From contig FAON01000004.1 in the NCBI GenBank assembly GCA_001485605.1, positions 124,001 through 188,000 of the forward strand: a stretch of DNA of 64,000 nt, in the 5' to 3' direction. Shown here in pieces: positions 51,842 to 57,241 of this stretch (within the stretch, counting starts at the first letter, position 1; every line of letters starts with the position of its first letter). This DNA comes from Candidatus Kryptobacter tengchongensis (GTDB lineage: Bacteria > Bacteroidota > Ignavibacteria > Kryptoniales > Kryptoniaceae). Both the position numbers and the translations under genes were made by a program. The notes below the pieces were generated by a model that worked only from the letters and a program-made list of their open reading frames with translations, did not search any database and was not told the DNA's origin.

Positions 51842-52933
51842 TCATTCTTGACCACCAAAGTTTAGCAAAATTGTAAAGCGAAGAGTATTAGCAAGCGGAT
51901 GGTTTTCCTCAAAAGTTGAAATATAACTGAAATCAACACCAACGATGCTATATCTTATCCCAGCTCCAAAGGTTGCAAATTTTCTTCCACCAGCGCGCGG
52001 GTCCTCATAAAAATAACCAGCTCTTAAAGCAATGAGCCGTGGGCTTCCATACCAATATTCAAATCCTAAACCAACAGTCACTTTTCTCAAACTTGCTTGT
52101 TCGCCCCATGCTGTGATCAGTGATTTCGGCAACGGATCGGGTTTTCTATTTTCACCTGGGTATCTTCTCACGAGAACTCTTCCAAAGTCAACAGTTGTTG
52201 TGAAGTTATTATACTTTGTTTGAATTATATCAAAAGCAAAACCAACCCTCAAATGCGTTGGAAGTGGGTCCGCCTGCTCCTTATCAATGTAATGAATCAT
52301 CGGACCAAGATTTGAAAGGTTAAATCCAGCACTTACTCTTCTTCCAAATATATACTCTCTGAAAAGTAAACCTATATCAAAGCTTACCCCGTTTGCAACT
52401 CCCCTGCCCTGCTCTTCCGCCGTTCCAAACGGAGCAAGCTGGCTGTGAATATATCTAAGATTTAAACCAAACCCCAAACTTTTGGTTAACTTCATAGCAT
52501 AGGCAAGCGTAACAGCATATTCAAAAGCTTTGAAGGTTCCAAGATATGTGTTATTTTCATCTCTTCTTTCAAAAGAGCCCAAGTTAAAGAAAGTTATATT
52601 TGCACCAACAGTAGCATCAATGACATTAAGGTAATGTTTTGCACTTAGGTATTCGTAAAACAGATCAGAGCTAAACTGTGGGAGCCATCTTGCATGTGTG
52701 AAGCTTATTTCAGTTCCCTTTTGAAAAGCAAGTCCAGCAGGATTCCAGAAAATTGCGTTTGCATTATCCGCAAGCGCAACCCCTGTTTCTCCCATTGCTC
52801 CAGATCTTGAATCAGGCGCTATCAAAAGAAAAGGTACCGCAGCATCTCCACCTTGTGCGTAAAGTAAATTACCAAATAAAATAAGCGCCAAAATAACATT
52901 TAATCCGATTATAAATTTGCCTTTCAACAACAT
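51842..52933 (-). CDS. porV: T9SS outer-membrane protein PorV (PorV/PorQ family)
   Basis: A 363-residue outer-membrane beta-barrel of the FadL-like PorV group. A signal peptide (about 1-26, ...NLLYAQ) precedes the family signature 'APDSRSGAMGETGVALADNANAIFWNPAGLAF' in parts (about 39-70), and 'SFTHARWLPQFSSDLFYEY' follows. The last strand ends 'FTILLNFGGQE'. PorV shuttles cargo from the T9SS translocon to the PorU sortase. The gene lies 119 nt downstream of porU, the order seen in other Bacteroidota. The start has the ideal AGGAGG shared with the pilin gene. PorQ is the main alternative, but the adjacency to porU favours PorV. Confidence 0.88.
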   Translation of the reverse strand: MLLKGKFIIGLNVILALILFGNLLYAQGGDAAVPFLLIAPDSRSGAMGETGVALADNANAIFWNPAGLAFQKGTEISFTHARWLPQFSSDLFYEYLSAKHYLNVIDATVGANITFFNLGSFERRDENNTYLGTFKAFEYAVTLAYAMKLTKSLGFGLNLRYIHSQLAPFGTAEEQGRGVANGVSFDIGLLFREYIFGRRVSAGFNLSNLGPMIHYIDKEQADPLPTHLRVGFAFDIIQTKYNNFTTTVDFGRVLVRRYPGENRKPDPLPKSLITAWGEQASLRKVTVGLGFEYWYGSPRLIALRAGYFYEDPRAGGRKFATFGAGIRYSIVGVDFSYISTFEENHPLANTLRFTILLNFGGQE

Positions 52934-53052: not shown

Positions 53053-56000
53053 TTACCTCATCACAACTAATTTCCCAAGTGATTCAGCCTTTTTTGAGCC
53101 ATTAGAATCTTTAACAATTACCTTATAAATATAAACGCCGTTTGCAACCTCATCGCCATCCATATCTCTACCGTCCCACTCAATCGCAATAAAGTTCCCA
53201 GTTAGACCGTACCTTTCTATTTTGTTGATCAACTTCCCAGTCAGAGTGTAAATTTTTATTTCAACATCAACAGGGGTATCCTCTAAAGTTGCAACTTTTT
53301 GAAAAGTAAAATATGTTTTATCTGCAAATGGATTTGGATAATTGAAAACATTATAAATCGCAAATTCACCAGACTCAACAACTTTAAATTCAATTTCTTT
53401 AACAGACGAATTATTGAAAATATCCCACGCTTTAACTTTTATTTTATGTTTTCCCGGCGCCAGATTTGGTAATCTATATCTAACCTCACCACGCCTGTAA
53501 TCATCAAGCTTTGCTCGGTAAAAATCGGAAAGGTCAATGCTTGATGGGCTATCATCAATGAATGCTTCAATTCTATGCCCTATTGCAGATGTTGAAACAT
53601 TAACACCGCTTTCATCAAAAATTTCAATAATTAAAAGTGGCTCATTAGAAACAACATCTCCAGGTTTAAAATTGGCATTATTCAGATAAATATCAATCTC
53701 CGGTCCTTTTAAATCACCAACAAAGTTTGAATCAATACCATTGATTACAAGATTTGTTGTAAAACCAGCACCGTCAACCCAGTCAGAATAAAAATATGCA
53801 ATTGCTTTAGCTCTTGCATTTGAAAAAGATATATCTTTAGGAAGAACGAATTCGCCTTTAAACATATCATTTTTAAGCGAATACTCACCTCTGAAAAGTA
53901 AATTACCTTGATCAATAAAATTAAACACCCACCCAAGCTCATCGGTATAACTTAAACTTTTCTGAGCATCAAAAATTGCAATTTCAACTTTTCCAGATAT
54001 ATTTAAATTTGAACCGTTGTTTTTGTGTACTCTCCCAGAAAAACTTGCCCTTCCAAGGGCTTTGAGCTGGATCAGCTGACTTGTGCTGTTCCCGTTCATA
54101 GTATCAATTGAGACTGAATATCTTGGTATAACAAGATGCAACGCCGGGTCTGCAAATAAGAAAAATTTTCTATCGTTAAGTGATGCATAATATTGTTTAA
54201 CCCTGAACATCGCCTCACCAACTTTAGCTGTTTTATATTCGTCAGTCCACTTAAAAAGTTCATCAAAAAATTTATAATTAAAAGCTGCGTTATCACCCGA
54301 ATAAACAAGCCTTGCAGATGAAAGAACACCAATTGCACCACCATTTTTAAGCGTTAATAAAACTTCGCTTGAACTTTGTGATTTCGGATTATCAAACCTC
54401 GCAAAATCACATGTAGCTGCTACAACAAACGGCAATCTACCGCCATTTTTTAGGTTTTGAATCGTATAACCGATCTCAAATACTCTCTCATGCGCCCAAA
54501 CATACGGATTACCATGCCCTATCCAATTTACAATTGCAACACCACGATTTATAAAATTAACAAGTGCTTTTGATGCTTCTGGCTTCCTTCTTCCAGCAGA
54601 AGTGTAGGTAGTTGGATACGCCACAAGATAAAGCTTCCGTTTATCAATAAACTCAGGGGTATAATAATTAGCAAGGGCTTCACTCTGAAGCGTATGGATT
54701 GTTCCATCAGTTATACCCCCAGAAGTTAAACCATCATCAGCAACATATAAAATTGTATTTCTCCAAAAACCAAAATCTTTATTAGTTTCATACTGAATTA
54801 TCTTATTCACAACAGTTTCAGCTTCTTCTTGGCTTTGTACTGGTAAACGACCTATTGCCATGTCTATGTAAATATCCGGAGTTAAAAGCACAAAGAAGTC
54901 ATCGGATGTATATGTTAAAATCTGTTGCAATCCTTCCCTGCTTTCATAAGCCGGGATCCAATTTTTATCCACAATTTCAACATTTCTATAATCATAATCC
55001 CCGTCCCCGAACAACAAGATGTAAAAAGGCTTCTTATTCCATTTGTCAAACGCATATTTTAAAAAATCTCTTATCGCAACTGGGTCAAGAATTCCACATG
55101 AAAATTCATTGTAAATATCTTCAACATCTACCACAAGTGTTTTAAGGGAATCCTTATTTGCTCTGTGATCAGCTAATCTTTTCGCCTGTGTTATGAAATC
55201 AGGATGAGTTATCGCAACCCAATCAGCTCCTTCAATTTCCCCACGAAGGTTGGTATTTTTAACCTTTTCAATTTTTGATACCTTTCTGTAGCCGTTGCTT
55301 CCGACGCCGATAAATCGCTTTATCACCCCTCTTTGCTGAGAAACCTGGAACATAAACTCGCCAGCATTTATATTACCTGTAATAATCTTAACATTTGCGA
55401 AATCAGTTACATCAAAAACTTTGACATCATTTGAAGAAAAACCTGAAATTTTATACTCAACAACAGCATTTGTGTCATAAGAAAAAAATGAGATATAATC
55501 ATTAACCGCCTTGAAGTTTCTTGGATAAATTATTTCAAACCAGTCAATATAGCCAGCAACTGCTTCCCCGATCCAGTTAAAATAAAATTTCAAATTGCTC
55601 CTTGAATCCTTTAGCGTCCCATTATAAACAAATTTCTTCGGTCCGGATTTAACGGCATAGAAGTCAAGTAAAGATGAGGCTCCGGTTAAAATAACTGTAC
55701 CAAGCTCTATAATGCCAAGTTCATCGTCACCTTCCTTAACGACAAACCAGTTTGGACCAGCTGACCTTGATGCAACTTGCACCCTATATTTAATCGGTTT
55801 CCCAGGAACAAGCTCATCAAGTTTAACTGCATAACTTATCACATTGAACCCAGACTTCGCTTCAACCGAAGCCATGAACCAATCCCGACCTGATTCAGTC
55901 AAGTTAATTTTTGAATCATCTCTAAAATAAAGCCCAACGGTATGCTCAGGTCTAAACGGAGATGGATGATTTAAACTTTGAACTGTTTCAATTCTTTTAC

Positions 56001-57105
56001 CCTGTGTCCCGCCGAATGTAAGAAAATAGTAATTTACATCCGAATAGTCATGAATGTAATGGGAAAACTCTTGATTTATGGGATCATAATTCCATCCGCT
56101 TGTCCCTTTACCATAGAAGAGTATGTAATCCCCTTGATCAAACCTTCCATCATCCTGTCCATAAACATAAATCGCATTCTCAATTAAACCACTTGGTCTT
56201 GAAGCTTGAACATCTTCAGGCAATTGGAAACCACCGTTATTAAAAATTTTTATTGTCCTCGGATCAATGTTATCCGGATTTATACCTGCATTTCTCAAAT
56301 CTGAGTAAGTTATCTTATAAATCCCTTCTTCTGTTATAGGTATCTTATACCAATCTCCGCTTGCAAGTTGGCTTACGCTTGGTTTAGAAAAGTTTAAATC
56401 CTGCAACTTCCAAAATTTAGCAATATCATAATTAACAAATGACTGCGCAACTTTTAGATCAAATTTATCTGGGTTTGCAAATAAATCTGTCCTCTGCCCG
56501 TATCTTAACATTAGTTTTATTTTTGTGTAAACCTTAACCTTACCAAGCGCAGGATTATACTGCAACGGATAAACTTTAATAGTTGACACAATGTAATTTC
56601 TCGCCCTACCTATATCCCCAAGCTTAATGATTTCTTCTGGGATATAATTCCCTTTTCCATAGCTATCGCCAAAAGCAAATACTTTTACATAAGAAATAGT
56701 ATCTTCGCCCCCCGAAAATTTTTCTGAAATTAAATTTGGAAATGGTTTTATCTTCACATTTTCATATTCAATGTAAGAAGTCTCAATAATTTGAATTGAA
56801 TTCCCATCAATTGCTTTCAAAGCAACTGGAAAAATTCTTACAGGAATTTGCGGCTCCCCTACTTTGGGGTTTTCAAAAGTTGTGTTAAAAAATAAAAACG
56901 ACAAAAGCAATTGACCATCATGTTTAATTGAATCAATTTTGAAAAGATAGGGGGTGTATTCAATCACAAGTTCATCACCAGTATTAGAAACAATTCTGAA
57001 ATCGGGGATGCTTTGAGATGAAACAATTTGAGCAATTAAAAGCAAGACAAATATAAAAGGACAGTTGCCAAGCGAACTTACGTTAAAGGCTAATTTGTTT
57101 CGCAT
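53053..57105 (-). CDS. porU: T9SS C-terminal sortase PorU (gingipain-like C25 peptidase)
   Basis: A 1350-residue cysteine peptidase that removes the sorting domain from T9SS cargo and attaches cargo to surface lipid. The C25 domain (about 640-1010) has the catalytic His864 in NWIGHGNP and Cys899 in AATCDFARF, followed by 'SSSEVLLTLKNGGAIGVLSSAR' in parts. Ahead lie beta-rich domains; the C-terminal 100 residues resemble a sorting domain ('VFNYPNPFADKTYF', 'VANGVYIYKV'), as PorU has. The signal region is odd: MRNKLAFNVSSLGNCP precedes the hydrophobic core FIFVLLLIAQIVSS, and this n-region is encoded by one arm of an inverted repeat. No clear Shine-Dalgarno is seen. The gene heads the porU-porV unit. 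Confidence 0.9.
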   Translation of the reverse strand: MRNKLAFNVSSLGNCPFIFVLLLIAQIVSSQSIPDFRIVSNTGDELVIEYTPYLFKIDSIKHDGQLLLSFLFFNTTFENPKVGEPQIPVRIFPVALKAIDGNSIQIIETSYIEYENVKIKPFPNLISEKFSGGEDTISYVKVFAFGDSYGKGNYIPEEIIKLGDIGRARNYIVSTIKVYPLQYNPALGKVKVYTKIKLMLRYGQRTDLFANPDKFDLKVAQSFVNYDIAKFWKLQDLNFSKPSVSQLASGDWYKIPITEEGIYKITYSDLRNAGINPDNIDPRTIKIFNNGGFQLPEDVQASRPSGLIENAIYVYGQDDGRFDQGDYILFYGKGTSGWNYDPINQEFSHYIHDYSDVNYYFLTFGGTQGKRIETVQSLNHPSPFRPEHTVGLYFRDDSKINLTESGRDWFMASVEAKSGFNVISYAVKLDELVPGKPIKYRVQVASRSAGPNWFVVKEGDDELGIIELGTVILTGASSLLDFYAVKSGPKKFVYNGTLKDSRSNLKFYFNWIGEAVAGYIDWFEIIYPRNFKAVNDYISFFSYDTNAVVEYKISGFSSNDVKVFDVTDFANVKIITGNINAGEFMFQVSQQRGVIKRFIGVGSNGYRKVSKIEKVKNTNLRGEIEGADWVAITHPDFITQAKRLADHRANKDSLKTLVVDVEDIYNEFSCGILDPVAIRDFLKYAFDKWNKKPFYILLFGDGDYDYRNVEIVDKNWIPAYESREGLQQILTYTSDDFFVLLTPDIYIDMAIGRLPVQSQEEAETVVNKIIQYETNKDFGFWRNTILYVADDGLTSGGITDGTIHTLQSEALANYYTPEFIDKRKLYLVAYPTTYTSAGRRKPEASKALVNFINRGVAIVNWIGHGNPYVWAHERVFEIGYTIQNLKNGGRLPFVVAATCDFARFDNPKSQSSSEVLLTLKNGGAIGVLSSARLVYSGDNAAFNYKFFDELFKWTDEYKTAKVGEAMFRVKQYYASLNDRKFFLFADPALHLVIPRYSVSIDTMNGNSTSQLIQLKALGRASFSGRVHKNNGSNLNISGKVEIAIFDAQKSLSYTDELGWVFNFIDQGNLLFRGEYSLKNDMFKGEFVLPKDISFSNARAKAIAYFYSDWVDGAGFTTNLVINGIDSNFVGDLKGPEIDIYLNNANFKPGDVVSNEPLLIIEIFDESGVNVSTSAIGHRIEAFIDDSPSSIDLSDFYRAKLDDYRRGEVRYRLPNLAPGKHKIKVKAWDIFNNSSVKEIEFKVVESGEFAIYNVFNYPNPFADKTYFTFQKVATLEDTPVDVEIKIYTLTGKLINKIERYGLTGNFIAIEWDGRDMDGDEVANGVYIYKVIVKDSNGSKKAESLGKLVVMR

Positions 57106-57194
57106 ATCGTGATCATTCGTTTTTGCTTTTAAGTTAAAGCATGTTAATTCAAAGAGTAAAAACCTTTAACGAAGTCGCAAAGGCAACTGTCCTT
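57057..57194. repeat. Imperfect inverted repeat across the porU start
   Basis: The outer 13-bp arms AAGGACAGTTGCC (57057-57069) and GGCAACTGTCCTT (57182-57194) are perfect complements. The inner 9-bp arms CGTTAAAGG (57081-57089) and CCTTTAACG (57163-57171) are also perfect, with GCGA and CTT matches between. About 29 bp can pair with small bulges. The loop (57090-57162) contains the porU ATG and its upstream region. The structure could be an RNA hairpin in the porU mRNA or a relic of a small palindromic element. Confidence 0.7.
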
Positions 57195-57212
57195 AATTTT
57201 TCAATCTACCTC

Positions 57213-57241
57213 AATATAATCAATCAAAAAATCAAAGTCAA
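57213..57241 (-). promoter_or_regulatory. Promoter of porU
   Basis: On the minus strand TTGACT (57241-57236), 17 nt, TATATT (57218-57213), the strongest match in the window together with the pilin promoter. Transcription would begin near 57206, so the full inverted repeat would be in the mRNA. Confidence 0.7.

Follow-up and report, generated by a model that had tools for sequence, protein, structure and literature searches.

Why should the start codon of a secretion gene lie inside a long inverted repeat, one arm of which is read as part of the signal peptide? The question is raised by porU in the 64,000-nucleotide stretch of DNA analyzed here (the window), whose host is a Candidatus Kryptonia bacterium. 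PorU is the sortase of the type IX secretion system, whose cargo it cleaves and attaches. The preliminary description of the locus proposed that the repeat is either an mRNA structure controlling porU, for example a temperature-sensitive hairpin, or a palindromic mini-element that had landed at the 5' end of the gene.

The porU product scores 1022 bits against the NCBIfam PorU model NF033707 (cut-off 420) and also matches the Pfam Peptidase_C25 domain, and the adjacent porV reaches 261 bits against the PorV model NF033710 (cut-off 250); the two genes lie on the same strand and are probably co-transcribed. The features of the locus are the following.

51842–52933, minus strand: porV, the adjacent gene downstream of porU (NCBIfam NF033710)
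53053–57105, minus strand: porU, type IX secretion system sortase, 1350 aa (NCBIfam NF033707)
57049–57058, minus strand: U-rich tract TTTTATATTT, immediately 3' of the stem, the proposed terminator tail
57057–57069, minus strand: 3' arm of the outer stem, GGCAACTGTCCTT, coding for GNCP (site of the compensatory change in G006)
57072–57089, minus strand: 3' arm of the inner stem P1, CCTTTAACGTAAGTTCGC, coding for most of AFNVSSL
57090–57162, minus strand: 73-nt loop with the start codon (from RNA folding)
57103–57105, minus strand: porU ATG in the hairpin loop, with the 3' arm 16 nt downstream in all six species
57163–57178, minus strand: 5' arm of the inner stem P1, GCGACTTCGTTAAAGG, carrying the class-wide core CGTTAAAGG
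57182–57194, minus strand: 5' arm of the outer stem, AAGGACAGTTGCC (from arm pairing)
57190–57194, minus strand: AAGGA motif close to the start of the mRNA, forming the opening bases of the outer stem
57213–57241, minus strand: sigma-70-type promoter TTGACT-17-TATATT, with the same boxes in all six Kryptonia

The inverted repeat around the porU start is real, with 13 + 16 bp of pairing on the minus strand: the outer arms (57182–57194 and 57057–57069) pair over 13 bp with zero mismatches, and the inner arms (57163–57178 and 57072–57089) form 16 bp interrupted by two single-base bulges. The leader RNA is predicted to fold with -53.1 kcal/mol (z = -6.45), a stability equaled by none of 200 shuffled sequences, and the ATG is enclosed by the hairpin as the preliminary description had it. 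The promoter placed there at 57213–57241 is also present, its boxes running from 57241 to 57213, and the predicted mRNA 5' end falls about 11 nt upstream of a stem of more than 25 bp. The gene indeed lacks a Shine-Dalgarno sequence, which is common here, as only 9 of the 35 long ORFs of the window have one, and the stretch NVSSLGNCP is a genuine oddity of the PorU N-terminus. That description was right about the hairpin and missed both the class-wide reach of the leader and the U-tract after the stem: the Kryptonia outer stem GGACAGTTGCC/GGCAACTGTCC leads into TTTT-rich sequence, and the tract, TTTTTT[AG]TTT in congeners, encodes PF[IL]F. An upstream overlapping ORF (ATGNNNACGATATGC) was set aside as a candidate, neither its length nor its frame being kept.

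The hairpin is under selection as a nucleic acid. In the six Kryptonia with an intact porU start, the promoter, both arms and the loop ATG are all kept at porU, and the block at porU in five congeneric genomes with a recovered porU start shows 82–92% DNA identity. Each of the six species retains all 29 pairs (174 of 174 pair cells paired), and the substitutions in the arms comprise one compensatory change, A-U to G-C in the outer stem of G006, and two wobbles. Third positions are invariant in the six species throughout porU codons 6–17, compared with 14% of third positions in the rest of the gene (17% at invariant amino acids), where the longest invariant run is 4. The amino-acid replacements within codons 6–17 are confined to the helix end (A/T, in a codon whose first base lies outside the stem), the bulged base (V/A) and the compensatory site (C/R). 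Furthermore, all six species have the stem 16 nt from the ATG, in-frame starts are kept too, and GGCAAC[CT]GTCC followed by TTTT.. occurs in every one of them. Covariation by itself was set aside as proof in Kryptonia: the arms vary too little, and 77 of 500 shuffles did equally well. In the comparison that the preliminary description had named as its own refuting test, congeners were found to keep both the start of the protein and the pairing of the arms; this supports the core idea of an mRNA structure controlling porU, but its temperature-sensitive version is not supported, for reasons given further below.

The element also reaches beyond the genus. A model built from the six Kryptonia sequences only (R1) and run on a class sample of 391 genomes had its best match outside the genus in G277, directly upstream of porU (E 0.0135). 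Conversely, a model of 12 leaders from other families, with Kryptonia left out (R3), gave matches in 55 of 313 genomes; each of the 34 loci fetched, among them 22 from outside the training set, had porU immediately downstream, and the sole match in the Kryptonia genome G006 was the porU element (E 0.029). These blind matches of R1 and R3 are weak singly, and their force comes from position. The model R2, made from family f2, also matched porU leaders in f4, f13, f14 and f23. Genome-wide, about half of the matches to the pattern GTTAAAGG-N-CCTTTRAC fall at porU, and the remainder are about as frequent as in a reversed-pattern control. Among 296 genomes sampled across the phylum, with an uncounted share from outside the class, matches were confined to the same class.

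Shared by these leaders are a P1 core, GTTAAAGG...CCTTTAAC, and a common layout. In other families, TTGACA-17-TATATT, often followed by AAGGA and TAT[AC]GA, precedes the P1 hairpin, which consists of TTGTTAAAGGTTT, a loop of about 20–80 nt and ACCTTTAACA, and the leader usually ends in a terminator such as CCGAATG...CATTCGGTTTTTT just upstream of the porU ATG. The core GTTAAAGG follows the -10 box at 42–44 nt in Kryptonia and at 28–57 nt in other families. A promoter lies upstream of P1 in 36 of 40 leaders from other families, with a TTGAC-type -35 box and a TATATT -10 box separated by 16–18 bp, compared with 1.2 of 40 in shuffled sequences, and 19 of 32 leaders have AGGA in the interval from the promoter to the P1 core, where shuffling gives an expectation of 5.1. 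AAGGA and TAT[AC]GA recur upstream of the P1 core in most leaders and on one strand only, the leader strand reading AAGGA-TATMGA-TTGTTAAAGG, which suggests a partner that would bind in a sequence-specific manner.

Rfam release 15, in which several families list cis-regulatory leaders, contains no family that matches the Kryptonia element or the leaders of its relatives at gathering score, the matches being weak and far below the cut-offs. The leader is kept before porU across at least nine families, and it very probably represents a conserved, previously uncatalogued porU leader RNA family that includes Kryptonia; that the Kryptonia inverted repeat is the local form of this class-wide leader is well supported. 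Conservation before one gene over so many families implies that a dedicated signal or binding partner exists, and it offers a handle on the regulation of type IX secretion.

Several families carry variants of this arrangement. In three f12 members (L059, L149 and L152), a start codon lies in the loop, some 70 nt upstream of the predicted porU ATG, and is in frame through the terminator; the in-frame reading into porU was seen in three of the six f12 genomes examined, with the peptide M..CK[EG]IYIGLPS.., and a Shine-Dalgarno sequence GGAGA is found at the loop start in L059 and L149, while in L060 and L157 the related peptide ends inside the terminator. Family f12 is an independent case of the start-in-loop arrangement of Kryptonia. 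No conserved leader ORF is common to the families examined, f12 alone having a related one (M..CK[EG]I). In f20 (L273, L274 and L275), the leader core stands about 1.5 kb upstream of porU, before a gene for a 463-aa MOP-type flippase, and it heads a flippase-porU operon, perhaps linked to the LPS anchoring of secreted proteins. A leader in f17 (L124:1501–1614, E 4.7e-6 with the f2 model) precedes a PorV-family gene closest to PorV2, and the element may thus control more than one secretion gene. Two porU copies are present in L071 and L141 (f2) and in G060 and G068 (f6), and in f2 the leader is matched at both copies. In addition, six f7 members (L077, L188, L193, L195, L201 and L212) have a different hairpin before porU, ACCATTTATTAAAG..CTTTAATAAATGGTTTTTT, which itself leads into a T-tract as in Kryptonia.

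What such a leader might do is suggested by the terminators that lie close before porU. A terminator was detected between -60 and -4 of the ATG in 52 of 133 porU genes (39%) and before 9 of 161 other ORFs (Fisher p = 6e-13, for start sites assigned automatically), with the T-run starting 4–60 nt upstream of the porU ATG. At so short a distance a promoter rarely fits between terminator and gene, so porU would be reached by read-through, that is, by attenuation; the case against a second promoter is drawn from this distance. The terminator hairpin of relatives takes forms such as GCCGAA..TTCGGCTTTTTT and GCCGAA...TTCGG. Moreover, the P1 3' arm has two possible partners, the P1 5' arm and the terminator, clearly so in f2, f23, f31 and part of f17; examples are L148, in which GACCTTTAACAT can pair with ATGTTAAAGGTT, and L064, in which TGTAGACCTTT can pair with AAAGGTCTGCA. 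The arm is more complementary to its own terminator than to swapped partners (p = 0.0085, among related sequences). No double changes of this switch were found within f2, and the alternative pairing is absent in f6, f14 and Kryptonia. Antiterminator pairing as a universal feature was considered and rejected, being unsupported outside a subset of families.

In many families, then, a strong promoter is followed by the GTTAAAGG/CCTTTAAC hairpin and by a terminator ending 4–60 nt before the porU ATG, and in several the 3' arm of the hairpin can pair with the terminator instead, which would give an antiterminator switch. Attenuation across the class is likely. In Kryptonia the separate GCCGAA hairpin is missing, and the proposal is that the separate terminator has gone and an extra outer stem leads straight into the U-tract, with the start codon in the loop and with the 3' arm and the U-tract serving as the opening codons of porU. 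The stem, which closes a loop of about 70 nt, much larger than is usual for a terminator, is followed directly by the U-tract in all six species; the standard scan, which allows loops of up to 8 nt, misses this putative terminator for that reason. The f17 leaders likewise have a stem and U-tract, located before their second terminator. TTT makes up 76% of Phe codons, and Phe/Leu codons could account for the U-tract; whether transcription terminates there in Kryptonia could equally go either way. Taken as a whole, we lean toward the porU leader being a transcription attenuator whose hairpin and U-tract have merged, in Kryptonia, into the coding start.

With translation starting at the loop ATG, the ribosome would unfold the stem and RNA polymerase could pass, and without a ribosome there transcription would end after about 160 nt; translation from the loop ATG would thus probably compete with termination in Kryptonia. 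Ribosome-dependent relief of termination is a tentative proposal. Rather doubtful is the fullest version, in which a class-wide attenuator links expression of the sortase operon to some sensed signal (translation status and secretion load are possible ones) and has collapsed into the gene in Kryptonia, where a single stem would serve as 5' leader, as terminator and as coding sequence for the signal peptide, with the ribosome as antiterminator. Kryptonia genomes have hundreds of type IX secretion cargo proteins, 811 being reported across the set of PMC4737851.

The main rival to a Kryptonia terminator is a constitutive stabilizer or protein-binding site: the same leader would be non-terminating in this lineage and act in 5'-end protection, RNase III cleavage or the binding of a protein that would repress or activate translation at the loop ATG. 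A stem of more than 25 bp that begins some 11 nt into the predicted mRNA would suit such a role, as would an ATG that is mostly open and fixed 16 nt from the stem, the lack of the GCCGAA terminator in Kryptonia, and the conservation of both core strands beyond what pairing demands, which fits a protein site. This alternative is nonetheless unlikely, given that six species keep the U-tract right behind the stem and that the relatives clearly carry terminators. Less probable by far is an independent small RNA, with porU expressed by passive read-through: the leader does have a promoter, a conserved hairpin and a terminator, but the leader is found almost only before porU or its operon, where a free RNA need not stay, and the Kryptonia element overlaps the coding start.

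The remaining explanations concern the repeat as DNA or as a thermosensor, and each is highly improbable. The inverted repeat is single-copy in the window's genome, the second exact GGACAGTTGCC, at C8:97844, being an unpaired chance copy within another coding region; a weak match in G047 (L086) was discarded, as it falls in unrelated coding sequence. Apart from the same locus in Kryptonia, no further copy was found in its own genome or in 60 relatives, nor among viral contigs, plasmids and phages, and a pattern scan of 84,980 species genomes returned three records, all of them Kryptonia (including Kryptonium and Chrysopegis) and all at the same locus. A MITE-like mini-element that landed at the 5' end and supplied the start codon would explain the 138-bp length with 13-bp perfect ends, and in the window genome the joined flanks give a plausible TTG start followed by MKNFIFVLLL, but the single copy at an identical site in six species, the want of a target duplication (already noted at the flanks in the preliminary description) and the core and promoter spacing common to leaders of other families all speak against it. 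Precise insertion was rejected as a candidate, the joined-flank TTG reading being out of frame in a congener. Judged on sequence, the invariant third positions of codons 6–17 and the block kept in congeners exclude a recent mobile element. Relatives within the phylum use invertible segments, and the start codon is flanked by inverted repeats, but an invertible switch or other DNA-level site is at odds with an orientation identical in six of six genomes and with G-U substitutions and asymmetric bulges, which suit RNA over identical DNA sites.

The thermometer, in which the hairpin would hide the start codon in the cold, gains some appeal from a hairpin around the ATG in a thermophilic host, Kryptonia springs being at about 70 °C (PMC4737851). 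In silico, the porU ATG is unpaired with a probability of 0.81–0.86 at every temperature from 37 to 80 °C, and at 80 °C the pairing probability is still 0.89 for the inner core and 0.96 for the outer stem, so the start codon would be open when cool and the stem would not melt. The known thermometers ROSE and fourU also place a hairpin near the start codon, but they mask the ribosome site and melt, in contrast to the mostly unpaired ATG and unmelted predicted stem of Kryptonia.

To conclude, the closer parallels are with attenuators. No report of RNA-level control of porU was found in the literature searched; in Flavobacterium psychrophilum, porU is induced by osmolarity and its reported control is a special promoter/sigma motif, and a leader RNA is not described in the part of that account consulted here (PMC9723704). 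The trp/his-type leaders, ribosomal protein leaders and riboswitch platforms share with porU the order of promoter, structured leader and terminator before the gene, and a subset of the porU leader families may also have the mutually exclusive pairings of intrinsic-terminator attenuators. The porU leader differs from these in having no conserved leader peptide, no known ligand or protein and an unrelated sequence. Kryptonia departs further, in that its terminator-like stem holds the gene's own start codon and opening codons, and if the proposed reading is true, an attenuator has here merged into the coding start and imposes its sequence on a signal peptide.
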